A stretch of 64,000 nucleotides of DNA from Thermosyntropha sp. Its GTDB lineage: Bacteria; Bacillota; Syntrophomonadia; Syntrophomonadales; Syntrophomonadaceae. Below the pieces are notes generated by a model that had not been told where the DNA came from, ran no database searches, and saw only the letters and a program-made list of their open reading frames with translations. Shown in pieces: positions 18,737 to 61,285 of the stretch. The number at the start of each line of letters is the position of its first letter. Position 1 is the first letter of the stretch. The stretch lies in contig NZ_JACDOH010000009.1 of NCBI RefSeq assembly GCF_017656155.1, forward strand, positions 1 through 64,000, in the 5' to 3' direction. A program made the translations under genes and the position numbers.

Positions 18737-21700
18737 TCAACAAAGCTTTTCTAAAATTTCTACTAAAATCTGTCTTTTTTCATCCTGGCTGAGGGAAGTT
18801 CCAAAATCTTCTAGGGATGAAATAATCTCATTGTAAAGAAGCCTGCCTATTTGACTGTAATCAGTTTTATTGAAAATCCTTACTTCTTCCTTTCCTGACT
18901 CATCTATAAAGCAGATTTTGTATCTGCTTTTCAGACAGGGAACTGCTTTTTTCTTATATTTTTCATCCTGCTCCTCTACCTTTTCTTTAAACTTTTTTGC
19001 CGCATCTAAAAAGCTTATTACAGTTTCACTATTCCATTCTTCTATCCTAAGCCCTACAAGATTTTTCGCAATCATCTCTGTTAAAAGCTCATCATCCCCT
19101 TCATACTCTTTTATAATTTTTAAAATTCTGTCTTCATTACTGCTGAATAAATGATTTTGGGTATAAACATCTAAACCTTCATGCCAGTCTTTTAATACTG
19201 AAACCAAGCTTTTATCCTGCTTTTGCCCTGCAAAAATCTTTCTCATATCGTGAGTTAATTTAACTGCCAAATCTTGCTTGGCATTATCTAACAAATCCTT
19301 GATTTTTCTTATTTCTTCTATTATTTTTTCAGGTTCTGTGTCGTGCACACCTAGTATTTTATAAGTTTTGCCAAACAAAAATTCCCGCGGGTTAATTTCC
19401 GGCTTGCGAATTTCATTTACAAATTTTAAATGTCTTTTATCTACAGGAACAAACTTTCCTTCTCCCATATAAATCTTTTCCATTTTCTTGGCATAAAGTG
19501 GCAGGGATACAAACCACCTCTGCATCCCTTTCAATATATAAGAAAAATTTCCATATTCCTTTTCTAATTCATTTATATAGCTGGCAAAAACAGCTTCTAA
19601 CCCTAATATATACCTCTCCTTGCTTTCGCTCCATTCTTCCAAGTAAAACCAGTATTCTTGCGGATTTTCATTTATGTTGTTCAGCAAATCTGCCGTTATC
19701 TCCAGTTCTTTCCCATTTTTGGTTATTACCGCATATCTTCTGAAAAAATGGAGAACTGCTGCTATATAAATAGGTATTACTCCTTTTTTTAAGCCTATTC
19801 CAAAATCGGGAGAAGTCAATTTATCATACAATTCCCGAAAATTCTTAGGATTATCTGCACTGCTGCTTATAAAAAACCCTTTTATAAGTTCTAAAACCTT
19901 TTGCAGATTATCTTCTTCAATATTTTCCAATTTCAAAAAAGTTTGTCCGTCTTCATTATGCAAAATTCCTAAATTCATCAGAGTAGTGCGCATTATAAAA
20001 ACTTCCAAACCATTACCTTTTAATCCCAAATTAAATTCCAACCTGTCTTTTAAAAGAGCTTTTACCACTTTAGTCCGGCTCTTAAAAGCTACCGGTGAAA
20101 TAACGTCCTTATTTACTACTTCATTATTTATAATGGGAGTATATTTATAAATATCATCGCAGATACGAGACAAATGATCATAGAACTGAGCCCTAGTGTA
20201 AATATTTTTCTTTTCACCACAATAATAGTAATAAGCTTTTTGATGCTCAGGATAAAAATAAATATTAATAAATCCTTTTATCGCTTTTTCCAAATCTTCT
20301 CTGTAAAAATCATATTCCTCTTTAAGTTCTAAATCATCCGCTGTTTCCTTTTGCAGAATATCTACAGCTTTATATTCAAAAGCTACCGCTTCTATATCAT
20401 AAAATTCCCGCGGAACAATAAAAACTATTCTTTTGTGTTTTACCCTGCTTAAACACAAAAAATCATGAACAGCTGCAAGTTCATCTTCATCTTTAGGGAT
20501 AATTCCATATACAACTCCGCTTCCTCTTACATCAGCTATTTTTTTCTCCCAATCCTTACAGCTTAATAATTCCTTCCCTTCTAAAAAAACAAAATCAAAA
20601 TACCGAACTATCTGCTTGTCATTGTTATGCTTTACCGGATAAAAATAATTTTCACTCAAGGCTTCATTCAAAACATCTCTGACTCTATAGCTTCCTTTTA
20701 CTTTTTCTACCATGTCGACGATTTCATTTTTTACTGAACCTGCCACTGCCGGATTTTTTAACACCAAATATCCATCGCTTTTTCTGACATAAACAACCCT
20801 ATACCCTTCCTGCAGCCTAGATAAAGCTGTCGCAATTTCTCTAGGATCACTAACTTTTTCTTTAAATATATTTATAATAACTTCCGCCGTAGGAGAAAGC
20901 CGATCAAATCTGTCGACCAGGTTTATCAAAGTTATAGTTTTGACAATTTGGGCTTCTAAGGAATTTTTTTCTAACTGGTTCAGTATTCTCTGGGCTGCTG
21001 AAAACTTCCTGAATATTTCGCTGGTATATATCTCTTTTTTAATCAAAGGTTCAAAATAATCATAAACATAATCGGGAGTAATTAGAGGGAAATCACCTTC
21101 TGCTGTCTTCAGAAAATAAGGCAAAGTATTTTTTTCATCAGCAGATAAAAAACTAAACAAAGTCCGCTCATTTTGAGCTATTTTATTGGTTAAACCCACT
21201 AAAACAAAAGCAGAAACAGGATGAAGAGGATAAAGCCTGTAAACCATCTCCTGCAAAGCAGTTTCATCCATTTCTAAAAAAACCTGCATTTCTTTTACTG
21301 AACTTACCACTTCTGTAATTTTTTCCTTTTTTGTCAACCAAAACTCATCGAAAAAACCTGGTTCATGTTTTATCACTTTGGAGATAACTTTATAAGTTTC
21401 GTAAAAATCGTCTTTAATTTCCTCATGCTTAAATCTTTCAGTAATAGCCCTCCAGGTGTCGACCTTGGCTTTAGGCAATTTATCTATATAGTTGGCAATG
21501 TCCTTATGGGTTATAAGCAGCAAGTGTAGCTGATTCTCCCGGCTTCGGTTGCACTTTTCCGCTAAATCCTGAAGAAGTTTCATCTCTTCCGCAGAAATCC
21601 GGCTGATATTATCTTCTAAATATTTGCCAAATTCATCATAGACTATATAAATGCCTTCATAACCATAAGAAATAAGCTGCTCCCCTACTTCTTCATATAC

Positions 21701-22381
21701 ATCTATCACATCAAAACCCAAGGGAGGATTAAAAATGCTCCCGGCCGTTAAAGACGGATATATATCTACAAACTGTTTATATGCCTTTTTGTCAAAAACA
21801 GACAATCTTCGTATGAACTCGGCAGCTGATTCTCCTATGTCCTCTAAAAACTTTTGATAAGTCTCAGGATATTCGGTTCTCCACTTTTCAATCATTTCTA
21901 AGGCCGCACTATAATTAGTTTTTAAAACTATATCATTAAGCCCTTCTCGGCGCAGAGCATTCTGCAGAGCAAGCAAAAGGGCTTGTGATAAGTCATGATA
22001 ACTGCCCTGGACAATTACCGGCAAAAATCTTTTTTCACTTTCTATATAACCCCTTAAAAAAGCAGCAAACTCCTGATTATATTCAGCTATTTCTTTTAAT
22101 AAATCCTCAAAAATACTTAAATCTTTTTTGGACAGTAGAGCTAATAAAACCAAAATCAAATGCGATTTGCCTTTTCCATACGGCCCTACTAATATCCTAG
22201 CTCTTTGGTTAGAATTTATGTAATAAGTGCTTAAAAAAATACTTTCCAAAAGTTCAACCAAAGCTACAGTAGGGATAAAATCTTTTATTTTCGCAATATC
22301 ATCTAAATCATAAGCAATGTTGACCGAATACTGAAAACCTTCTAAGGTTTTTACGGCTTTTTCTAATATACTTTTACTCAT
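18737..22381 (-). CDS. sspC: Large P-loop ATPase, SspC-like (BrxC/PglY-like size)
   Basis: A 1214-residue cytoplasmic protein. Walker A is GPYGKGKS (residues 66-73) and Walker B IYIVYDE (244-250); no membrane segment is visible. The remaining ~900 residues are helical with charged stretches. Size and Walker A context resemble BrxC/PglY-type defence ATPases and it occupies the SspC position next to DUF4007, the DndC-like protein and the desulfurase. SspC is reported to be an ATPase needed for phosphorothioation; the exact role here is inferred. It begins 35 bases after the DUF4007 stop; start ATG 22381 follows GTGGGGTAG. No frameshift is seen across this long ORF, so the gene seems intact. Confidence 0.75.
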   Translation of the reverse strand: MSKSILEKAVKTLEGFQYSVNIAYDLDDIAKIKDFIPTVALVELLESIFLSTYYINSNQRARILVGPYGKGKSHLILVLLALLSKKDLSIFEDLLKEIAEYNQEFAAFLRGYIESEKRFLPVIVQGSYHDLSQALLLALQNALRREGLNDIVLKTNYSAALEMIEKWRTEYPETYQKFLEDIGESAAEFIRRLSVFDKKAYKQFVDIYPSLTAGSIFNPPLGFDVIDVYEEVGEQLISYGYEGIYIVYDEFGKYLEDNISRISAEEMKLLQDLAEKCNRSRENQLHLLLITHKDIANYIDKLPKAKVDTWRAITERFKHEEIKDDFYETYKVISKVIKHEPGFFDEFWLTKKEKITEVVSSVKEMQVFLEMDETALQEMVYRLYPLHPVSAFVLVGLTNKIAQNERTLFSFLSADEKNTLPYFLKTAEGDFPLITPDYVYDYFEPLIKKEIYTSEIFRKFSAAQRILNQLEKNSLEAQIVKTITLINLVDRFDRLSPTAEVIINIFKEKVSDPREIATALSRLQEGYRVVYVRKSDGYLVLKNPAVAGSVKNEIVDMVEKVKGSYRVRDVLNEALSENYFYPVKHNNDKQIVRYFDFVFLEGKELLSCKDWEKKIADVRGSGVVYGIIPKDEDELAAVHDFLCLSRVKHKRIVFIVPREFYDIEAVAFEYKAVDILQKETADDLELKEEYDFYREDLEKAIKGFINIYFYPEHQKAYYYYCGEKKNIYTRAQFYDHLSRICDDIYKYTPIINNEVVNKDVISPVAFKSRTKVVKALLKDRLEFNLGLKGNGLEVFIMRTTLMNLGILHNEDGQTFLKLENIEEDNLQKVLELIKGFFISSSADNPKNFRELYDKLTSPDFGIGLKKGVIPIYIAAVLHFFRRYAVITKNGKELEITADLLNNINENPQEYWFYLEEWSESKERYILGLEAVFASYINELEKEYGNFSYILKGMQRWFVSLPLYAKKMEKIYMGEGKFVPVDKRHLKFVNEIRKPEINPREFLFGKTYKILGVHDTEPEKIIEEIRKIKDLLDNAKQDLAVKLTHDMRKIFAGQKQDKSLVSVLKDWHEGLDVYTQNHLFSSNEDRILKIIKEYEGDDELLTEMIAKNLVGLRIEEWNSETVISFLDAAKKFKEKVEEQDEKYKKKAVPCLKSRYKICFIDESGKEEVRIFNKTDYSQIGRLLYNEIISSLEDFGTSLSQDEKRQILVEILEKLC

Positions 22382-22416
22382 CGCTTTTCTACCCCACTTA
22401 CATGATACTAAATAAG

Positions 22417-23319
22417 CTAGTCATTACTATTACCAGTTATATCTTGATAATATGCTTCAATACATCCATAAAAATCAAGCTCACTTAAAATTTTCACCAA
22501 ATCTAGCCCTGCGGTTCTGATCACCTTAATATAGCCCATTTTTTCTAAAGCAAATAGGTAATGGTTTAAAGTTACAATATCCAAATTAAAAATTCTTCCC
22601 ACACTTCCAGGTTCATTGAGCAGCTTTTTTATTTCGATTTCTCTTTGGGTGCCTGCTTGAGTTAAAATTACCGCTAAAACTATTAAAGGAGGCAAAACTT
22701 CTTTAGCCGGTATTTCTTTTTTATAAATCTTTTCTTTTTTATCAGCCAAACTAATAAGCCCTAACTCCCTGAAAGGACAGTCAATATTATTCTCCGGATC
22801 TATTTTTTCTGCATTTATCCTGCTTTTAGACAAATAAGTATTTATGATGCATTCAAAATCACTCTCTAAAGAACTTCCCGCAATCTCCTGGCCAATCTCC
22901 AACTTAACATAATTGCTTAAAGCAGTTATAAAATCCTCCTTTTTAAAGCTCTTAAGCTTAAATTCATTAAAAAAGTAATACCAGGAAGTAGCTCCTTCCT
23001 TATTAGTTGCCAGCTTATAATGTAAAAGACACAAAGTTCCCGTTTCCTGCATACAAGGATCATACTGCCAAATAATATCCCCTAATCTAGTCGGCTGCTG
23101 AGTTCTAACCCCAGCAGCCTTTTCTTTCGTCAGTCCTACTGCCTGCATCCAGTAGCGCAAAGATTTTACCATATTAGCTCCTATTCCTAAAATATCCATA
23201 GGATTTTGGCTTTTGCTCACAAATACATCCGGTCTTTCTTTAACATTTTTCAAACCCTTATAAAGCCAACCTTTGCGGATAAAAAAAGTTTCATGCCCCC
23301 TGAATTTATAACTACTCAC
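22417..23319 (-). CDS. sspB: DUF4007 protein, SspB-like DNA nickase of phosphorothioation
   Basis: A 300-residue DUF4007 protein with the family's hallmark opening FRGHETFFIRKGWLYKG and a winged-helix-like C-terminus. SspB, described as a DUF4007-type nickase in SspABCD systems, is thought to nick DNA to allow sulfur insertion; assignment here rests on the domain and the neighbours. The start is GTG 23319 with AAAAGGAG eleven bases upstream. It sits 23 bases after the DndC-like gene and 35 bases before the ATPase gene, so the genes are surely co-transcribed. Confidence 0.78.
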   Translation of the reverse strand: MSSYKFRGHETFFIRKGWLYKGLKNVKERPDVFVSKSQNPMDILGIGANMVKSLRYWMQAVGLTKEKAAGVRTQQPTRLGDIIWQYDPCMQETGTLCLLHYKLATNKEGATSWYYFFNEFKLKSFKKEDFITALSNYVKLEIGQEIAGSSLESDFECIINTYLSKSRINAEKIDPENNIDCPFRELGLISLADKKEKIYKKEIPAKEVLPPLIVLAVILTQAGTQREIEIKKLLNEPGSVGRIFNLDIVTLNHYLFALEKMGYIKVIRTAGLDLVKILSELDFYGCIEAYYQDITGNSND

Positions 23320-23342
23320 TTTGCTTCAATCTCCTTTTAAAA

Positions 23343-25064
23343 TTATTCCTGCCTTAAATAGAGATATTTAGACATAAGACAGCCGCCGTCCAAATACTTA
23401 GCAGTAACACACATGCGGCATCTTCTGCATTTTTCCTCATTTATAAAATATCCCTGATTTTTAGTAACGGAAATGGCACCGAACTGGCATAGTGCTTCAC
23501 ATTTAAGACATTCTCTGCACGCATTATACTTGCGGATCTGATAGCTTATCATTCTCTGCAGATCTTCATGATCCTTAACATTCATAGTTTTTATTTTTAC
23601 TGCATTCCTTTGCCCATTCTGTTCTAAAGGCTGAATAGAAATAATAGGAACTTTAGAATTTATATCCAATATTATTATTTCATTAATCAATCTGCGCCCT
23701 AATTCCTCAGCAACCTTGCCAAAAGGATAAAATAAAGTTATAAAATTTTCTGTTATCGGCTTATTCAGCTGATATATCCTGGCATTTTCTTCATTGGTGC
23801 AGCTGCTGAACTTAATCTTTACATCTCTAGCCGCCTTAAGTCCTCTTCCTCCCTGACGCGCTTTCCAGTTCCCAGAATCGACATATTCTTCCGCATCCGT
23901 TTTGCCAATTTCCCGAGCAAAATTAATCAAAAAATCCCGCCATTCTTTGGCCTTTTCCGGCATATAAATATTAGATAAAAACTGCGCCCTTTCATTGTTA
24001 TTTGGACAGCACCAGCATCCTACCCTTTCATAACCTAAGCGGTAGGCATCATTAAAATCTAAACCCTCAGCTAATATATACAGCCAAACATCTATATCTT
24101 TCCAAAAAAATATCGGAGAAGCTACGGTTTGCTTGCGAATCTTTAAATACTCAGAATCTCCTTCAATACGGTTATATTTGCTTCTGCTTGCCGACTCTGA
24201 TCTGCGAATTCCGTAAAAGGTTAATACTTTTTCATCCCGATACAAATTATTAAATATCCTATTGATCGGTCCGGTTTTGAACATAGAACAGCACCAGCGC
24301 AGCATACGGGCAGGAGGACCTATTTCACGACAAACTTCATAAAAATTCTGTTCTTTATTTTTGGCCGTCTTAAATATTACCTGCGGATTATCTTTTTTAA
24401 ATCTCTGCACATACTCTAAGGTTTGCGGCAATTCCAAAGTTGTATCACAAAAAATATGCACCAGAAAAGGATTGGTCAAAGCCTTTACCACCAAATCGGA
24501 TACCACAGTAGAGTCTTTCCCTCCTGAAAATGAAACAACTATATTGGTAGGCGGATAAGCTGCTGCAGCTGAATTTATAAAATAAACAGCCTCTTCTTTT
24601 AAACTGTTTAAATGTTCGCGATTTGCTTCTGTCCATCTTTCTTTAAAAAGCTCGAAATAATAATAAGTATTCTGTCCCTGATTCAACTCTAATTGTTCAG
24701 CTATGTATTCATAGGGAAATTTTTTAAACATATTTCTTCTTACAATTTTAGGTTTGCCGTCAATATAATACCTGTTTTCTGAACACCATACTGAATTTTC
24801 TATATATGCAAAAGGTTTTTCCAAAAGTATTTCCAGCCAAAGCCTTTCTTCAGGGAAAACCGGTCTTATATCTGCAGCTAAATATCTCACAGGTGCAGAA
24901 CATAATGAACAGTAATTTTTCTTAACATCATTAGCTCTGTACACAATCGGCACTTTACATCTATCACACCAAAAGATCTCAGTCGGTACCTCCTGCTCAA
25001 CCTGTCCTCCGCAAAAAACACAAACATCTCCGTATACTTCTGTATGGCAGTTTTTGCACCACAA
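23343..25064 (-). CDS. sspD: PAPS-reductase/DndC-like protein with zinc ribbons and ferredoxin tail (SspD-like)
   Basis: A 573-residue protein in three parts. The N-terminal ~60 residues hold two cysteine pairs each of the CxxC type (CKNC/CVFC and CDRC/CSLC), i.e. zinc ribbons. The middle is an adenine-nucleotide alpha hydrolase: the PP-loop SGGKDST (residues 180-186), LRWCC, and GCWCCPNN, as in DndC/SspD, which activate the DNA phosphate and transfer sulfur. The last ~60 residues are a ferredoxin with CRECLKCEALC and CRRCRMC. TTG 25064 is chosen as start because GGGAGGG lies six bases before it; the upstream GTG 25118 has none. The layout resembles archaeal PAPS-reductase-like proteins and is larger than classical DndC. 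It follows the DUF262 gene by 59 bases. Confidence 0.82.
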   Translation of the reverse strand: MWCKNCHTEVYGDVCVFCGGQVEQEVPTEIFWCDRCKVPIVYRANDVKKNYCSLCSAPVRYLAADIRPVFPEERLWLEILLEKPFAYIENSVWCSENRYYIDGKPKIVRRNMFKKFPYEYIAEQLELNQGQNTYYYFELFKERWTEANREHLNSLKEEAVYFINSAAAAYPPTNIVVSFSGGKDSTVVSDLVVKALTNPFLVHIFCDTTLELPQTLEYVQRFKKDNPQVIFKTAKNKEQNFYEVCREIGPPARMLRWCCSMFKTGPINRIFNNLYRDEKVLTFYGIRRSESASRSKYNRIEGDSEYLKIRKQTVASPIFFWKDIDVWLYILAEGLDFNDAYRLGYERVGCWCCPNNNERAQFLSNIYMPEKAKEWRDFLINFAREIGKTDAEEYVDSGNWKARQGGRGLKAARDVKIKFSSCTNEENARIYQLNKPITENFITLFYPFGKVAEELGRRLINEIIILDINSKVPIISIQPLEQNGQRNAVKIKTMNVKDHEDLQRMISYQIRKYNACRECLKCEALCQFGAISVTKNQGYFINEEKCRRCRMCVTAKYLDGGCLMSKYLYLRQE

Positions 25065-25123
25065 AAAATTACCCTCCCTATAAAATCTGGTCTTTAAAAA
25101 GCACAGGAATAGCAGCACAACAT

Positions 25124-27313
25124 CTATGCAATGAGAAAAGCCAGTTCACTTTTCAATTCGTTTTGCAGTAGATTAAATCTCTCTTCAAGAAAAGCTTTAT
25201 AAAAATTCATACTCTTCTTATCATTATATCCTTTAATTGGAGGCACAAAGTGCTCATAAAATTTAACTTCTTCAAATTCTTTATAATAATCATCTATTGA
25301 TTTGTTCTTTATCCTATTATTGGCAGATTTAGTAATATAGGTTTTGTTAAGCGGACTGTTTAAAATATGACTTTTATCTTTTCTCAGCTTATCCGCGCTT
25401 TCTCCTATTTTGGTAACACTTCCTAAAGGTATAATATGATGCATATGTAAATCTTCAGAAACGGCCATCCAGGGCCCTAATCTAACTGTTCCTCCTTTAT
25501 TCCAATCATGCGGTTCCTTACTTAAAATATACTGAAGAATAGCTTTCTCGACTGCTCCCGGAACAGGAGTCTTTTCCTCCCTACGCATTAAAACTTCACG
25601 ACTAGAATATCCCTGATAATTAAGAACTTTTTCATATGTGCTTTTTAAATAGCTGTCATCAGCATCAATGCTAAATATATGCAAAAATTGATTTAAATTT
25701 TTTAGATCTTCTATCACCCGAAAATTCTGATTTTCGCGGTATGCTCCTCCAAACAGGGAAACCCAATACCAATATTCAAGCCTTCTTATAACCTTGATAT
25801 CCTCCCAATTGCTATCATTACCCAAATAAAAAGCAATAGGAATAAACATAAGTTCATAAGGCATTTCATTTATATTAAAAATACCGCAACGGAAATGGAG
25901 AAAAGCTAAAGCTCTAGCTAGTGATTTTATAATATATTCAGTATTTTTGTTAATCTGCTCCCCACTTAACCTTAATATACTAGCTTTCTTGATATATTCA
26001 ACCTTTACTCTGCTTATATCTTCTCCACAGTTAACTGTTATGGAAAGAAGATTCAAATACTGATTTTGTATTACTTTGCTCAAGGTATTATCTTCACTGA
26101 CTACATTCATCATTTTCGCAGCATTCCATTTACAATAATCCTCATACCCAGCTATACTTATTCCTTCTCGAACTGCCTCAGACAATTCAAAATCTTCTTT
26201 AAGATAATTTATTATTCGGTTGGTTAAAGAACTTTTTAAAATATCTTCATCTTCTTCAAAATCATCATCTGCTGTTTTCACCCTACTAGCCGCTAATCCG
26301 TTATTTTTTGCCGCTTTAGCTACAACCAAATCATAAACACTCAAAGGAGTTCCACCTTTATTTATATTCTCAAATATCGAAACAGCTTTCTGTAAATCAT
26401 TCAAGATTATTACAAATATCTCTTGCCTTAATAAAGAACGCAGATAATTTTTTACTGCTTCAACCCACCGAGTTTGCAAACGCAGCCATGCCTTTTCAAT
26501 CTTTTCATTTTCATTGTTTGTAACATATTCTTTTATTTTAGGGTCAACTATTTTCAAAATTTCTACTATGTCTTTCTTACCGTCTTTCACCTCGGCCTGC
26601 AATTCCTTCACCCTTCTGCTAGCTATATCATCTAATGCCCAATATAAAAGAGATTCGTTAGTATCATTAATTGAATCTTCATAAAGGGTATATAAAGGAA
26701 CCAAATACTTATACCCAACTGCCTCACGAGCTATTTCAAGCAATATCTCATTGATATTTTCTGTTTCTACCCCGGAAAAGCGGGCAGGATGATACCAACT
26801 GTCGGTTTCCCTAGTCTTTTTGATCGACTTGTATTCAACAAAATCTATCACATCCTGGGGTTCGAACTTTGATAAATCATAAAAATTTAAATTATCCCAC
26901 CCAAAAATATCTTCTTCTCCTTTTTCCAAATCAGGCTTAATCCTCAAAAACCATCTAGTCCTTAATTTTTTGTATGTATTCTCCCAATTTTCTTTCCAAT
27001 CTCTTCTTTCAAACTTAAAAATATCGTCAAATACCACTCTTAAAGTAGACAATCTTTGCTGTCCATCTAAAAGATAATAGCATTGCTCCTTCGGTTCATA
27101 CTCCAATCTAGGAAAGCATAAACGACGGGAAGCAAAATCCCCTTTTTTGCCTTCCACTAATAAAAAAGTGCCGATATGTGATTTAACTAAAAAAGAAGCA
27201 ATCAACTGCTTTATATTCTCTTCTTTCCAAACATAATCCCTTTGAAAATTAGGCAGAGCAAGTTTATCCTCTCTATCCCATTCTAACAATTCCAGTAAAG
27301 TCCTTTTTTCCAC
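25124..27313 (-). CDS. sspE: DUF262-DUF1524 effector, SspE/GmrSD-like
   Basis: A 729-residue cytoplasmic protein with an N-terminal DUF262 (ParB-like NTPase) showing LPNFQRDYVW and the DGQQR motif (residues 83-87), and a C-terminal DUF1524 HNH nuclease around residues 625-665 with HHIIP and NKTYIT..ANN. GmrSD enzymes cut modified phage DNA; SspE, in phosphorothioation systems, is stimulated by the host's sulfur mark to nick unmarked phage DNA. The adjoining desulfurase, DndC-like, DUF4007 and ATPase genes favour SspE. It is the first gene of the cluster; start GTG 27313 follows GGAGGG. Both active-site motifs are intact. Confidence 0.83.
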   Translation of the reverse strand: MEKRTLLELLEWDREDKLALPNFQRDYVWKEENIKQLIASFLVKSHIGTFLLVEGKKGDFASRRLCFPRLEYEPKEQCYYLLDGQQRLSTLRVVFDDIFKFERRDWKENWENTYKKLRTRWFLRIKPDLEKGEEDIFGWDNLNFYDLSKFEPQDVIDFVEYKSIKKTRETDSWYHPARFSGVETENINEILLEIAREAVGYKYLVPLYTLYEDSINDTNESLLYWALDDIASRRVKELQAEVKDGKKDIVEILKIVDPKIKEYVTNNENEKIEKAWLRLQTRWVEAVKNYLRSLLRQEIFVIILNDLQKAVSIFENINKGGTPLSVYDLVVAKAAKNNGLAASRVKTADDDFEEDEDILKSSLTNRIINYLKEDFELSEAVREGISIAGYEDYCKWNAAKMMNVVSEDNTLSKVIQNQYLNLLSITVNCGEDISRVKVEYIKKASILRLSGEQINKNTEYIIKSLARALAFLHFRCGIFNINEMPYELMFIPIAFYLGNDSNWEDIKVIRRLEYWYWVSLFGGAYRENQNFRVIEDLKNLNQFLHIFSIDADDSYLKSTYEKVLNYQGYSSREVLMRREEKTPVPGAVEKAILQYILSKEPHDWNKGGTVRLGPWMAVSEDLHMHHIIPLGSVTKIGESADKLRKDKSHILNSPLNKTYITKSANNRIKNKSIDDYYKEFEEVKFYEHFVPPIKGYNDKKSMNFYKAFLEERFNLLQNELKSELAFLIA

Positions 27314-27866: not shown

Positions 27867-28501
27867 TTAGATTTCTTGCTTTTCTAAGCGCCTTCTTTTT
27901 TTAGCTAATAACAGATCATACACTACACCACCATTAGCTTCAAAGGCTCTTAATCTAGCCATTTGGTCTACTCCTGTTTTACACCATCCTAGTGGTCTTG
28001 AGCTTAATCTTGCTGATAAAATATGGCTAACATGCCCCTCAGCGCTACATCCTATGTAGTCTGACTTATACTGATTTCTTATGCCATCCCAGTTCTTAAG
28101 TATGTATTTTTTTGCCTCTTGAACAGCTTTTTTCTTTGTCTCCGTTTCGGTTGCGCTAATGATTGCAGAAAAAAGTTCTTTCACTTTCTTTTTATCACCA
28201 TTATTAATATGCTTCCACATAATAGGGGTAATGTCTGCCATATGCGCTGTTGCTTGTGTCACATATTTTGATAGATGATAACGATCCAGCACATAAATAC
28301 TGCCTTTGATCCAGCCCAAGTCGTTTTTTATCCAAGGCGCTCCATCTCCTCGGCTACAAGCTTCACCCATATCCCATCTAGCATTGTTTTGGTAGCCATT
28401 ATGAATTCAGATATATCTCTTACTTCTGTAAAAAGTTTCTGTAACTCCTCCGAAAATTTTTCCCTGATTATTTCTGTGATTTCTTGTATAATAGCTTTCA
28501 T
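27867..28501 (-). pseudogene. ISLre2-family (UPF0236) transposase remnant, internally deleted
   Basis: ATG 28501, with AAAGGAG upstream, opens a frame encoding the family N-terminus (MKAIIQEITEIIREKFSEEL) for 57 residues to TAA 28328. In an overlapping different frame 28370-27867 encodes the C-terminal third, starting near GDGAPWIKNDLGWIKGS and including VLDRYHLSKY and GCSAEGHVSHILSARLSSRP, typical of ISLre2 transposases. The middle is gone. The junction has the string GGAGATGGAGC, readable as EEMER in one frame and GDGAP in the other, suggesting deletion at a short repeat. Not functional. Confidence 0.85.
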
Positions 28502-29406: not shown

Positions 29407-29628
29407 ATTTATCCCCCTGTTTGCAATATATGGTAAAACTTCCGCGAGAGTGTCAAAAAACCGCCTTCAGCTGCCCAAATCCATCCTTATACTTTCAGCA
29501 AAACTGTGGAAGAGTCAAAATAAAAACCCGGCTTAACCCGAGCAAAAAGTACTGATAAACAAGTTATTATTTTTATAACTTTATTTTATTTATTAAATGT
29601 TTGCTTGCTAAATAATAAATATTAATAT

Positions 29629-29651
29629 ATACTACCCTTAGGGGGTATAAT
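29629..29651 (+). promoter_or_regulatory. -10 box and CsoR/CstR-like operator before the HesB-like selenoprotein gene
   Basis: A perfect TATAAT (29646-29651) lies about 30 bases before the start codon. Overlapping its spacer is an interrupted palindrome TACCC-TTA-GGGGGTA (29633-29647), the type of G-tract-flanked operator recognised by CsoR/CstR-family repressors that sense copper or sulfane sulfur. The -35 region is poor. The operator call is a pattern match only. Confidence 0.5.
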
Positions 29652-29681
29652 CCTCACTAAACAAAGAAAGGTGGTAAAAAC

Positions 29682-30008
29682 ATGGTTATAAAAGCAGAAA
29701 ACTCAGCCATTGAGGACATCAAGACCCTTTTAAAACGGCAAAATATAGATACTGATACACTGCGTATTGATGCCCAGGTAGGCTGAGGCGGCATGTCGTT
29801 CATATTGGTCCTGGATGGATCAAAAGAAGGCGATGTTAGCGAGGTAATAGACGGCATTAAATTCGTAGTTGAACCTGAGCTGGTTGATCTCTTCGGCGGA
29901 TTCACCATAAAATCTTTCCGTTCCGGCGAAGTCATAAAACTCACAATTACACCTGACAAACAGGTAGAAAATGGCGGAGGCTGTTCTACCTGTCCCAGCT
30001 GCGGTTAA
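29682..30008 (+). CDS. HesB/IscA-like selenoprotein (Sec at codon 35, TGA 29784-29786)
   Basis: Reading the in-frame TGA as selenocysteine gives a 108-residue protein: N-part ending RIDAQVG, Sec35, then GGMSFILVLDGSKEGD and a C-terminal CSTCPSCG. This is the A-type iron-sulfur carrier fold; in IscA the equivalent first ligand is Cys35 within GCSGM, and a C-terminal cysteine pair supplies the others. HesB-like selenoproteins with Sec at this site are a known small family. Start ATG 29682 follows AAAGGTGG; the internal ATG 29793 has no good site. Full Sec machinery is in the window and a candidate SECIS hairpin follows the TGA. A terminator follows. Treating TGA as stop would lose the protein. 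Confidence 0.85.
29807..29821 (+). promoter_or_regulatory. Candidate bacterial SECIS hairpin in the HesB-like gene
   Basis: GGTCC-TGGAT-GGATC forms a five-bp stem with a five-base loop, twenty bases after the TGA, inside the coding region. Bacterial SECIS elements have a short stem with G-containing apical loop at this distance. No folding program was run. Confidence 0.6.
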
Positions 30009-30019
30009 CAAATTACTCA

Positions 30020-30062
30020 TTAGGGCTAAAGACTCTAGTTTCTTTAGCCCTAATCTTTTGGT
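30020..30062 (+). terminator. Terminator after the HesB-like gene
   Basis: A 13-bp stem TTAGGGCTAAAGA/TCTTTAGCCCTAA (30020-30032, 30041-30053) is followed by TCTTTTGGTTT, eleven bases after the stop codon. Confidence 0.88.
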
Positions 30063-45163: not shown

Positions 45164-46201
45164 TTAAAGCAATATCTCTATTTTATCATATCCTGAACCA
45201 GTAACCTTCCCTATTTCGAAAAATGCACATTTTCGATTTTTCAATCCTTTTACAAGCTTTTCTGCTTTTTCTTCACTTACTGCTATTAAAAGCCCTCCGG
45301 CCGTTTCCGGAGAAAAAAGGAGATCTGCTACTATAGAATCTACGCCAGGGTTTATATTTACTTTATCTATAAGATAATCCCGGTTAGTATACGCTCCCCC
45401 GGGTATTAAACCCATCCGGGCATGATCTAATGTCTCCTGCATAAATCCAACCTTGCTTGAATAGATCTCCACCTTCACATCGCTGCCGGAAGCCATCTCA
45501 TACAGATGTCCGATAAGCCCAAAACCGGTAATATCCGTAGCCGCATGAACCTCCGCCTCTATCATAGCTTCACATGCTTCTTTATTAAGCATAGTCATCC
45601 AGTAAACTGCTTCTTCATAAGCTTCTTTAGAGACCATATCCGCTTTAATTGCAGTAGCAATAACACCATTGCCCAAAGGTTTGGTCAAAAATAAAATATC
45701 CCCCGGTTTAGCTCCGGAATTGCCAATTATCTTATCCGGATGCACTATCCCCGTTACCGATAAGCCGTATTTAGGCTCATTATCATCAACCGTGTGTCCT
45801 CCAACTAAAAGAGCCCCGGCTTCCTTTATTTTATCCAGACCACCCCTCAGTATTTCCTTTAAAACATAAAGATCAGCACACTGAGGAAAACATACGAGGT
45901 TCATAGCCAGCAAAGGCTTTCCTCCCATGGCATAGACATCATTAATCGCATTAGCTGCCGCCACCTGTCCAAAAACATATGGATCATCTACCATAGGAGT
46001 AAAAAAATCCATGGTTTGTATCAAGGCAATTTCCTCGCTTATCTTAAAAACCCCTGCATCATCCCGGGTATCCAATCCCACCAGAAGGTCGGGATGATAC
46101 GGGAGCTCAAAATCACCAAGAATCTTTTCCAAGGTCCCCGGACCTATCTTGGCAGCTCAGCCAGCCGCTCGAACCATCTGGGTTAATCTTACTTTTTCCA
46201 T
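45164..46201 (-). CDS. selD: Selenide, water dikinase (Sec-containing SelD; TGA at 46159-46157)
   Basis: A 345-residue SelD once TGA at codon 15 is read as selenocysteine: MEKVRLTQMVRAAG, Sec15, AAKIGPGT, then the remaining 322 residues. The Sec lies in the loop where other SelD proteins have the catalytic Cys. LVGLDTRDDAGVF and VGGHTVDDNEPKYG are the ATP/metal motifs. It makes selenophosphate from selenide and ATP, the Se donor for both SelA and itself. Start ATG 46201 follows AAAGGGGTGAGG. A stop-only reading would begin inside at TTG 46132 and lose the catalytic residue. A SECIS-like hairpin follows the TGA. Confidence 0.95.
46129..46152 (-). promoter_or_regulatory. SECIS-like hairpin in selD
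   Basis: On the minus strand, five bases after TGA, CCAAG-ATA-GGTC-CGGG-GACC-TTGG folds into a stem with a three-base bulge and a G-rich four-base loop. The position matches bacterial SECIS elements. Confidence 0.7.
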
Positions 46202-49320: not shown

Positions 49321-49420
49321 TGGCGGAAGCGTGTGAGAATCGAACTCACCTGCGCCGGGACCACCGCCGCACGACTGGATTTGAAGTCCAGGCGGCCCAC
49401 CAGGACCGATCCGCTTCCGC
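49321..49420 (-). tRNA. selC: tRNA-Sec (anticodon TCA)
   Basis: A 100-base tRNA with encoded CCA, long acceptor stem (GCGGAAGC with CGCTTCCGC), a large variable arm (CGTGCGGCGGTGGTCCCGGCGCA region) and anticodon loop ACTTCAAAT with anticodon TCA. The T-arm is GAGTTCGATTCTC. Length, acceptor and large variable arm all indicate selC. Confidence 0.97.
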
Positions 49421-57858: not shown

Positions 57859-59757
57859 TTACAGCTTTACGCGCACATCTCCTATCCTTCTGGTGAAACG
57901 AATCCTATCATAATATTCTACCAAAGGAAGTGTATACTTGCGAGTAGTTTTAAATAAATCACGCGCAGTTGCTAAAGTAAGCTCCTTTTCGCGGGAAAAA
58001 TATTCGCTCAAAATCTCTTTTCCTTTTTCTACAGCCTCCGCCGTAAAAATCATATCAGAACTTACTTTAATAAGAAAACCTTCTTCAAGTAAATACGAAA
58101 TTATTTCTTCTACCTGTTCATCGCTCAAATTGAACTTATCCTTTATTTCCGATATATCAGGCGGCATAAACAAATTTTTCCTCATTTCCGCCTTAATTTT
58201 TTCAATAATTGCTGCCTCTTTTTCCGAAGGAGCCGGTACATGCCCCTTAAGCATAAGCTGATTATTTTTAACTTCTATACTTCCCTTATCCTCATATATC
58301 TTTAAAATCTGATTAAAAACCTTGCCGTTAATATTGCTGAAAAAGCGGCTGCGCATATCTTCCTTGGGATATCCCTGGCGGAGAGGATATTTACGGTGAT
58401 AAACTTTAAGGTTTTCTAGAATTTTTTCTTCAATAACCTTTAATCCATAATTACTAATATATATCTTCGGGCTTATTTCGACAACCTTCTCGGCAAATTT
58501 TAATTTTTCCAATTCCTGGATAACATCTTCACTTAATCCGCCTGTCTTTTTAGCTAGTTCATTTGCAGAAAAAATCTGCAAAGGATTATTTTCCAGCTCA
58601 TAAAGCAGCATTTCCCCTGGACTGCCTTCCTCTTTCATTGCCAGTTCCTGCAAAACATCTTCACGAAATCTCTTTTGCTTTGCAGCATTAGCATCGATTA
58701 TAATACCACCACCGATAGTGGTAACCGGAGAATAATAGCGGATAACAAACGGATCCCCTTTATGGCATACTACCGGCTCTTCCATAACTATCTGGACATA
58801 AGTCTCTTCTCCTGCTTTAAGCTCATCACAGTTAAGGAGGACTACCCGTCCCAAAACTTCATCAGTTCCCAGATGGAAATGAATCCGGTTCCAGTTTTTC
58901 AAAACCCTGTTGGTAGAATTTATAAGCCTGAGCTTTGCATCAACCCGGTAACTCGGCTGAAGATAGCCTGGAGTTGCCAGCCAGTCCCCCCTTTTAATAT
59001 CTGATACTTCTATCCCCTGAAGATTAACTGCCACCCTCTGCCCGGCATAAGCCGTATTTACCTTTTCGCCATGCACCTGCATATTGCGTATTTTAAGCTG
59101 GCGGCCCGATGGCAAAAGCTCCACCGTATCTCCTACATTAAACTGTCCGGACCATAAAGTTCCGGTAACCACCGTGCCAAATCCCGGCATACTGAAAACC
59201 CGGTCAATAGGCAGTCTGGCATGTCCGAATGCAGGCTTTTCTTCAACCTCAGAAGCCACCTTTTCTATTTCCATAAGCAGCTCATCAAGCCCTTCCCGGG
59301 TAACCGAAGAAACACAGACAATAGGAGCTCCTTTAAGAATAGTTTTATCTACATATTCCCTCACTTCTTCCTCTACTAAAAGAAGCCACTCCTCATCCAC
59401 CATATCCTTTTTAGTCAAAACGACAATGCCCTTCTTAACCCCCAAAAGCTCTATAATATCCATATGTTCGCGGGTTTGCGGCATTATTCCCTCATCAGCC
59501 GCTATTACAAACAAAACCATATCTATGCCGAAGGCTCCAGCCAGCATATGTTTAATAAAACGCTCATGCCCCGGAACATCAACAATAGCAGCTTTTTGCC
59601 CGCTCGGCAGCACAAAAGGAGCAAAGCCAAGCTCAATAGATATACCTCTTTTTTGCTCCTCTTTAAGCCTGTCCGTATTTATTCCGGTAAGCGCCTTAAC
59701 CAGGGTAGTCTTACCATGGTCAATATGCCCGGCAGTTCCAATTATAACCCTCTTCAA
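57859..59757 (-). CDS. selB: Selenocysteine-specific translation factor
   Basis: A 632-residue GTPase that delivers Sec-tRNA to UGA. The G1 motif [27 protein letters not shown] and a KKDM G4 motif are clear; domains II-III follow, and the C-terminal ~250 residues are winged-helix domains that bind SECIS RNA. TTG 59757 is chosen because AGGAGG lies seven bases upstream; the GTG 59778 is before that site. It lies in a selA-selB order with a 65-bp repeat between them. Confidence 0.95.
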
Positions 59758-59780
59758 ACTCCATCCTCCTTTTTTCACTT

Positions 59781-59867: not shown

Positions 59868-61268
59868 TTATTTTCTTAAGGCTTGTTTTAAAATATCAAC
59901 AATTAAAAGGTAATCTTCTTCAAAAAGAGTCCGGACACTTATAAGAATTTTATCTTCCTGAATCCGGCTTACAAAAGCGGGATTGCCCCGGCGCATAATA
60001 TAAGACAAAGCTTCCGTTTTAACCCCGTTAAAGGAGATTTCAACCCCGTATCCGGGGATAAAGGTAGCCGGATATGCACCTCCTCCTACCATGTCTTCCA
60101 CTTCTACGATTTCTATTTTATCTATGGAAAGAAAATTTCCCACTTTTTCTTTAAGTATCATTTGAAGTTTTTCAGCCCTCTTTTTCAGCTCTTCCCGGCT
60201 TAAAGTGAGCATATTTATAACGGGAATATTTTCATAAGGATTTCCGCAAAGATATTCAAGCAGGGTGCCTTCCAAAGCGGAAATAGTCAGTTTGTCTACC
60301 CGTAAAGCACGGGTAAGCTGATTCTTTTTCATAGCCTCTACATATTCTCTTTTTCCTACAATTATGCCGGCCTGGGGGCCTCCCAAAAGCTTATCACCGC
60401 TGAAGGTAATAATATCCGCTCCGGAAGCTGCACACTTCTGTACTGTGGGTTCATCCTTGAGCCCCCATTCAGAAAGGTCACACAGTATGCCGCTTCCCAA
60501 ATCCTGCATAACCGGCAGGTTTCTTTTTCTTCCCAGTTCTACCAACTCGCTCAGCTCAACCTCTTTACTGAAGCCTACAATTTTATAATTGGAAGTATGG
60601 GCAGCAAAAAGAAGGGCGGTATTTTCATTTATAGATTCTTCAAAATCCCTGATATAGGTCTTGTTGGTTGTTCCTACCTCTACGAGCTTAGCACCGCTCA
60701 GCTTCATAACCTCCGGAATGCGGAAAGCCCCGCCTATCTCCACCAGCTGTCCCCGGGAAACTATAACTTCCCTTCCGGCAGCCAGGGTATTAAGTCCCAA
60801 AAGAACAGCAGCAGCGTTGTTATTGACTACCAAAGCTGCCTCCGCTCCAGTTATCTTTCTTAAAAGTTCCTCAACATGAAAATAACGGCTTCCCCTCTCT
60901 CCCTTTTCCAGGTCAAACTCCAAATTGTTGTAATTTACCGCCATTTCTTTCATATAATCCAATGCCCATTTTCCTAAAGGTGCCCGTCCCATATTAGTAT
61001 GCAAGACTACTCCGGTGCCGTTTATAACCTTGCAAAGAGTCCCGCTTGCATCCGAATTTACGACCTCTCCGATTTCCCGGACAATATTTCGCACTATCTC
61101 ATCTTTTTCCATTTCTTCCGTTGTCGATTTAAGCCAGTTTCTTATATTTCCCAATGCTTTGCGCACGGCAGAAACTACAAATTCCCGATTATAAATCTTA
61201 AAAAAATCTTTTACCTCTTCATACTGCAAAATCTCATCTACTGGCGGGATTTTTTTTAGATTAACCAT
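59868..61268 (-). CDS. selA: L-seryl-tRNA(Sec) selenium transferase
   Basis: A 466-residue PLP enzyme converting Ser-tRNA(Sec) to Sec-tRNA(Sec). The PLP lysine is in [14 protein letters not shown], and the N-terminal part and [18 protein letters not shown] match SelA. ATG 61268 lies six bases after AGGAGG; the preceding ATG is too close. It is upstream of selB, with a repeat element in the gap. Confidence 0.96.
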
Positions 61269-61285
61269 CATTTACCTCCTGTTTT

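Follow-up and report, generated by a model that had tools for sequence, protein, structure and literature searches.

A-type carriers of the IscA family have a ligand set of three cysteines that includes a C-terminal C-x-C, and in SelA/B/C/D systems SelB together with tRNA-Sec decodes UGA as selenocysteine (Sec). HesB-like selenoproteins carry the motif UxGP (PMC13188914); a 2006 survey catalogued 11 of them in bacteria and gave no HesB-like protein for Syntrophomonas wolfei (PMC1794560). Mutagenesis and 75Se labelling identified the HesB-like selenoprotein of Methanococcus, whose function is unclear, and a mutant with the gene disrupted fixes nitrogen normally (PMC11097638). No function is given for HesB-like selenoproteins in PMC11097638 or PMC13188914. 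An earlier note on the DNA studied here spoke of rare precedent for such a protein, which understates the case, HesB-like selenoproteins being an established family (PMC1794560, PMC13188914).

The window, i.e., the whole 64,000-nucleotide stretch of Thermosyntropha sp. DNA analysed here, very probably contains a single-gene selenoprotein of the HesB/IscA (A-type) superfamily that is decoded with Sec, a confidence that covers identity and Sec decoding and excludes the function of the product (Table 1). Because the standard-code list of open reading frames (ORFs) holds none of at least 90 aa on the + strand at 29682-30008, an ordinary gene caller would truncate or miss the gene, as the earlier note had claimed. 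The ribosome binding site and the terminator that it reported were also recovered, the former with sites resembling AAAGGTGG ahead of most orthologues, the latter as a pattern match only.

Table 1. Coordinates and strands of the features in the window.
Feature	Position	Strand	Details
Probable HesB/IscA-like selenoprotein gene	29682..30008	+	108 aa, Sec at codon 35; start ATG at 29682, stop TAA at 30006-30008
In-frame TGA, Sec codon 35	29784..29786	+	aligned with E. coli IscA Cys35
Bacterial SECIS-like hairpin	29805..29823	+	stem 29805-29811 / 29817-29823, 7 bp; loop UGGAU 29812-29816
Ribosome binding site-like AAAGGTGG	29667..29674	+	7 nt 5' of ATG
Sigma-70-like promoter TTAATA-18-TATAAT	29622..29651	+	consensus match only
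Intrinsic terminator-like hairpin	30019..30054	+	14 pairs and T tail; pattern match only
selD, selenophosphate synthetase	45164..46201	-	in-frame TGA at 46157-46159 (Sec15)
selC, tRNA-Sec	49321..49418	-	anticodon TCA
selB, Sec-specific elongation factor	57859..59778	-	
selA, L-seryl-tRNA(Sec) selenium transferase	59868..61271	-	

A protein search found orthologues in 26 of the 63 genomes of the order Syntrophomonadales, the named relative Thermosyntropha lipolytica among them, and a protein search of related genomes gave matches in 18 of 61. TGA stands at codon 35 in the orthologues of all 26 genomes, and each orthologous match that covers this codon has exactly one in-frame TGA, in register and within the motif GUGG. 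Only three matches lack it: L021 is a piece cut by a contig end, and the first part of the same orthologue (L018) has the TGA; L019 belongs to the Cys type and comes from a different family of the phylum; and L022 (with L091, G036:C26) is a paralogue that has diverged, with Phe in place of Sec and two residues inserted next to it, while its genome encodes the Sec form as well. In one orthologue (L017, G025:C1:295968), homology is lost after residue ~80 despite a long contig, probably through a frameshift, be it real or an assembly error.

Conservation runs across the TGA. In the clade alignment, Lys14, Leu27-Arg28-Ile29 and Gly34 are invariant on its 5' side, and Gly36-Gly37, Leu44-Asp45, Asp51, Phe61, Phe74, Cys101 and Cys104 on its 3' side. 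Synonymous changes are in excess both 5' and 3' of the codon, with dN/dS mostly 0.02-0.54 before it and, after it, 0.07-0.17 for close pairs and 0.19-0.32 for wider pairs where computable, bearing out the claim of conserved coding on both flanks. A true stop codon would not leave such purifying selection downstream, arguing that the TGA is not a stop, and the UGA at codon 35 is evidently read through in frame. A true stop, whether in a pseudogene, through a sequencing error or between two short ORFs (one of 34 aa, the other of 71 aa that starts at the ATG at 29793), is highly improbable, given the identical TGA in every orthologue over many genera, the purifying selection on both of its sides and a covarying SECIS (below); against two short ORFs in particular, the ATG at 29793 (Met38) is not conserved within the clade. 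Genome-wide reassignment of TGA is hardly conceivable: it is refuted by stop usage, 8 of the 43 long ORFs of the window ending in TGA, and tRNA-Sec and SelA/B/D are present.

Rules for a bacterial SECIS call for a loop of 3-9 nt with a G in its first two positions, a stem of 4-16 bp, a UGA-loop distance of 16-37 nt and a minimum free energy of at most -7.5 kcal/mol (PMC13188914). The downstream hairpin noted earlier falls within every one of these bounds, with a stem of 7 bp, the loop UGGAU, whose second position is G, a distance of 25 nt and an energy of -10.3 kcal/mol. Across 28 sequences, 96.9% of cells are paired, compared with 89.4% in shuffles, and changes on both sides of the stem (compensatory changes) occur in 16 cells against 3.4 expected from shuffles, figures that are supportive rather than exact probabilities, the shuffle controls ignoring relatedness. 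When the hairpin partner is slid by 1-3 columns, no more than 49% of cells stay paired, and RNAalifold recovers the identical helix with no structure supplied. Leu44, whose codon lies in the loop, is CTG in 26 of 26 sequences, whereas the equally invariant Leu27 is spread over six codons, arguing that the RNA is under constraint and not the protein alone. The window hairpin by itself is not unusually stable relative to shuffles (z about -1 to -1.8), and energy was therefore not used as proof of a SECIS; an Rfam search gave chance matches only. Built on model fit, covariation and codon constraint, the case is that the hairpin 25 nt 3' of the UGA is evidently a bacterial SECIS under selection.

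SelA, SelB, SelC and SelD are complete in the genome, with all four genes in the window and selD, selB and selA each scoring over the NCBIfam cut-offs. The earlier note had placed a full Sec apparatus nearby: the set is indeed complete, but it lies 15-32 kb downstream and shares no operon with the gene. Since decoding by SelB and tRNA-Sec is established for SelA/B/C/D systems, the UGA is read as selenocysteine, a decoding that we consider nearly certain on the sequence evidence. All genomes holding the gene also have SelB, either whole or truncated where a contig ends, and the gene is absent from all four genomes without a true SelB match, an association that is weak alone (Fisher p 0.14). The selD gene is itself a selenoprotein gene, with its TGA within the motif GUAAK; under table 11 its start would be called at a later TTG, and the N-terminus would be lost.

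The best NCBIfam matches of the window protein are HesB_rel_seleno (TIGR01911; 46.9 bits, cut-off 66.35), IscA_HesB_Se (NF038090; 43.8 bits, cut-off 85) and TIGR00049 (29.1 bits, cut-off 58.8), all below cut-off, and the single protein has no significant Pfam match. Canonical HesB-like proteins score low too: of five, L041 alone exceeds the TIGR01911 cut-off and none exceeds that of NF038090. Outright membership of TIGR01911 was rejected, as both the cut-off and the motif UxGP are missed: in the clade, the Sec is followed by GG and then M, A, S, V, I or T, and never by P at that place in any member. The clade profile matches solved structures of IscA and of AQ_1857, and Sec35 falls on Cys35 of E. 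coli IscA, numbered by counting from the printed alignment, so that the position claimed for the TGA is confirmed. The comparison with Cys homologues, which the earlier note had set as a check that could overturn its reading, likewise puts IscA Cys35 and the Cys-type HesB-like proteins at the TGA. By these alignments, Sec35 evidently takes the place of the IscA Cys35 ligand. An A-type fold is predicted: the AlphaFold model has a pLDDT of 85, with the tail 98-108 mostly disordered, and its best Foldseek and VIA matches are IscA and SufA (Z 10.8-12.9, rmsd 2.0-3.5). Collectively, homology, selection, SECIS covariation, fold and the complete Sec apparatus back the reading of the locus as a HesB/IscA-like selenoprotein.

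Compared with the structures of E. coli IscA (1s98, 1r94), E. coli SufA (2d2a) and IscA with a [2Fe-2S] cluster (1x0g), the protein has the same predicted fold and residue-35 position, at about 16-20% identity in structural alignment. Unlike these A-type carriers, the clade has Sec for Cys35, a C-terminal tail of CxxCxxC (Cys101, Cys104 and Cys107) for the CxC of IscA, and no conserved gene context; the protein thereby departs from the three-Cys, C-x-C ligand set, with one ligand position being Sec and the tail differently spaced. The last tail Cys is absent in one orthologue (L016). With the HesB-like selenoproteins of TIGR01911/NF038090, which are also its best NCBIfam matches, it shares the A-type fold, Sec at the HesB/IscA Cys position, a length of ~100 aa, a SECIS just downstream and anaerobic hosts, and the tree groups the clade with them. 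It differs in its sub-cut-off scores, in UGG[M/A/S/V/I/T] for UxGP and in a long stem branch.

In a sample of 398 Bacillota genomes, strong matches (>140 bits) are confined to Syntrophomonadaceae, and the weaker matches comprise Cys A-type proteins and canonical UxGP HesB-like proteins, most of the latter with TGA. The Syntrophomonadaceae proteins, every one with Sec, come together in a single clade of the tree (99/99), and this clade of 24 is nested with canonical Sec HesB-like proteins (96/81), the nearest Cys forms being placed elsewhere; long branches make the deeper joins unsure, and the join of the clade with L041 is flagged as a possible long-branch effect. We conclude from homology and phylogeny that the clade is a well-supported, divergent branch of the known HesB-like selenoproteins, so far seen only in Syntrophomonadaceae; no earlier description of it was found in the literature searched. 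Several Syntrophomonadaceae genomes give no match, in agreement with the 2006 result for S. wolfei. A second, separate type of HesB-like selenoprotein occurs in the genus g16 of the same family (L085-L089). It resembles the clade in being A-type, in its TGA position and in a similar hairpin sequence after the TGA, and differs in its canonical UGGP, its only short terminal Cys tail and its placement in a separate clade; one genome (G071) has two such UGGP genes in tandem, each with its own TGA (L085 at G071:C221). Outside the order, genome G048 has Cys (GCSGP, L019) and Sec (GUGGP, L023) HesB-like proteins together, a natural Cys/Sec pair for comparison.

No Cys orthologue was found inside the clade, and the Cys comparison was made with more distant homologues. 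A TIGR00049 search of the 63 genomes of the order returned only TGA-bearing proteins, none over the cut-off, and no Cys version; the same search detects matches in 8 of 14 control genomes and could miss a very diverged Cys A-type protein lying below detection. One IscU-like and one SufB-like protein are present in the window genome, in which no Cys A-type protein was detected. It is rather doubtful, though conceivable, that the A-type superfamily of Syntrophomonadaceae consists of Sec versions only, which would make it a lineage of Sec-only Fe-S carriers whose clusters, ligated by selenolate, suit a syntrophic metabolism at low potential. The clade is useful for testing the role of HesB-like selenoproteins, with Sec fixed, no Cys relative known within it and, in the window genome, no detected Cys A-type paralogue able to mask a phenotype. 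It also means that current family models and gene calling overlook a set of real selenoproteins.

What the protein does is a more tentative matter. Iron or Fe-S ligation leads among the readings because of the Sec35 position and the A-type fold, and the function that we find likeliest, at about even odds, is the carriage of Fe-S clusters with selenolate among the ligands. The protein would act as a dimer that carries Fe-S or iron; its Sec35 selenolate, together with the flexible CxxCxxC tail cysteines (Cys101, 104 and 107), may hold a labile cluster that could be handed on to anaerobic Fe-S enzymes. Two points count against such ligation, namely that the tail is disordered in the model and unlike the CxC of IscA. 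The same tail, with its invariant Cys101 and Cys104, is what makes a selenol/thiol redox or trapping role thinkable, if on the unlikely side: being flexible in the model it could reach Sec35, and an A-type selenoprotein might then form a selenenylsulfide between Sec35 and Cys101/104/107, as many Sec oxidoreductases do, with no Fe-S cluster. Redox active sites are where Sec typically occurs, and according to a 2026 review most selenoproteins still to be characterised should turn out to be redox proteins (PMC13188914); however, the Sec site has no UxxC or CxxU motif, and both the A-type fold and the placement of Sec exactly at Cys35 favour cluster or iron binding.

A selenolate with three cysteines also amounts to a soft-metal site, and Sec35 and the Cys tail might bind or store iron, selenide or another soft metal outside any Fe-S cluster, for instance in the role of a chaperone for a metal or for selenium. 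We regard this as distinctly unlikely. The gene stands alone and has a patchy distribution, as detoxification or chaperone genes do, and the E. coli IscA crystal is a mercury derivative (1r94), which proves only a capacity to take such metals; yet nothing in the surroundings points to metal resistance or selenium transport. Indeed, the ORFs within 6 kb at 21 loci share no consistent neighbour, so there is no conserved operon and the gene context gives no function. Co-occurrence with IscU (17 of 26 genomes with the gene, 13 of 37 without; p 0.023, relatedness uncorrected) was judged too weak to serve as evidence, given relatedness and four genomes of the genus g22 that have the gene without IscU. 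The absence of the gene from more than half of the order's genomes and the lack of a fixed operon point to an accessory rather than a core assembly factor.

Upstream of the gene, 18737-27313 on the - strand appears to be a defence island that encodes an SspC-like ATPase, an SspB-like protein, a BrxP/SspD-like protein whose C-terminus bears a ferredoxin-like cysteine cluster and a fourth protein that matches several defence families more weakly. Between this island and the selenoprotein gene, an open frame at 27867-28370 (-) may be a transposase remnant, which it resembles.
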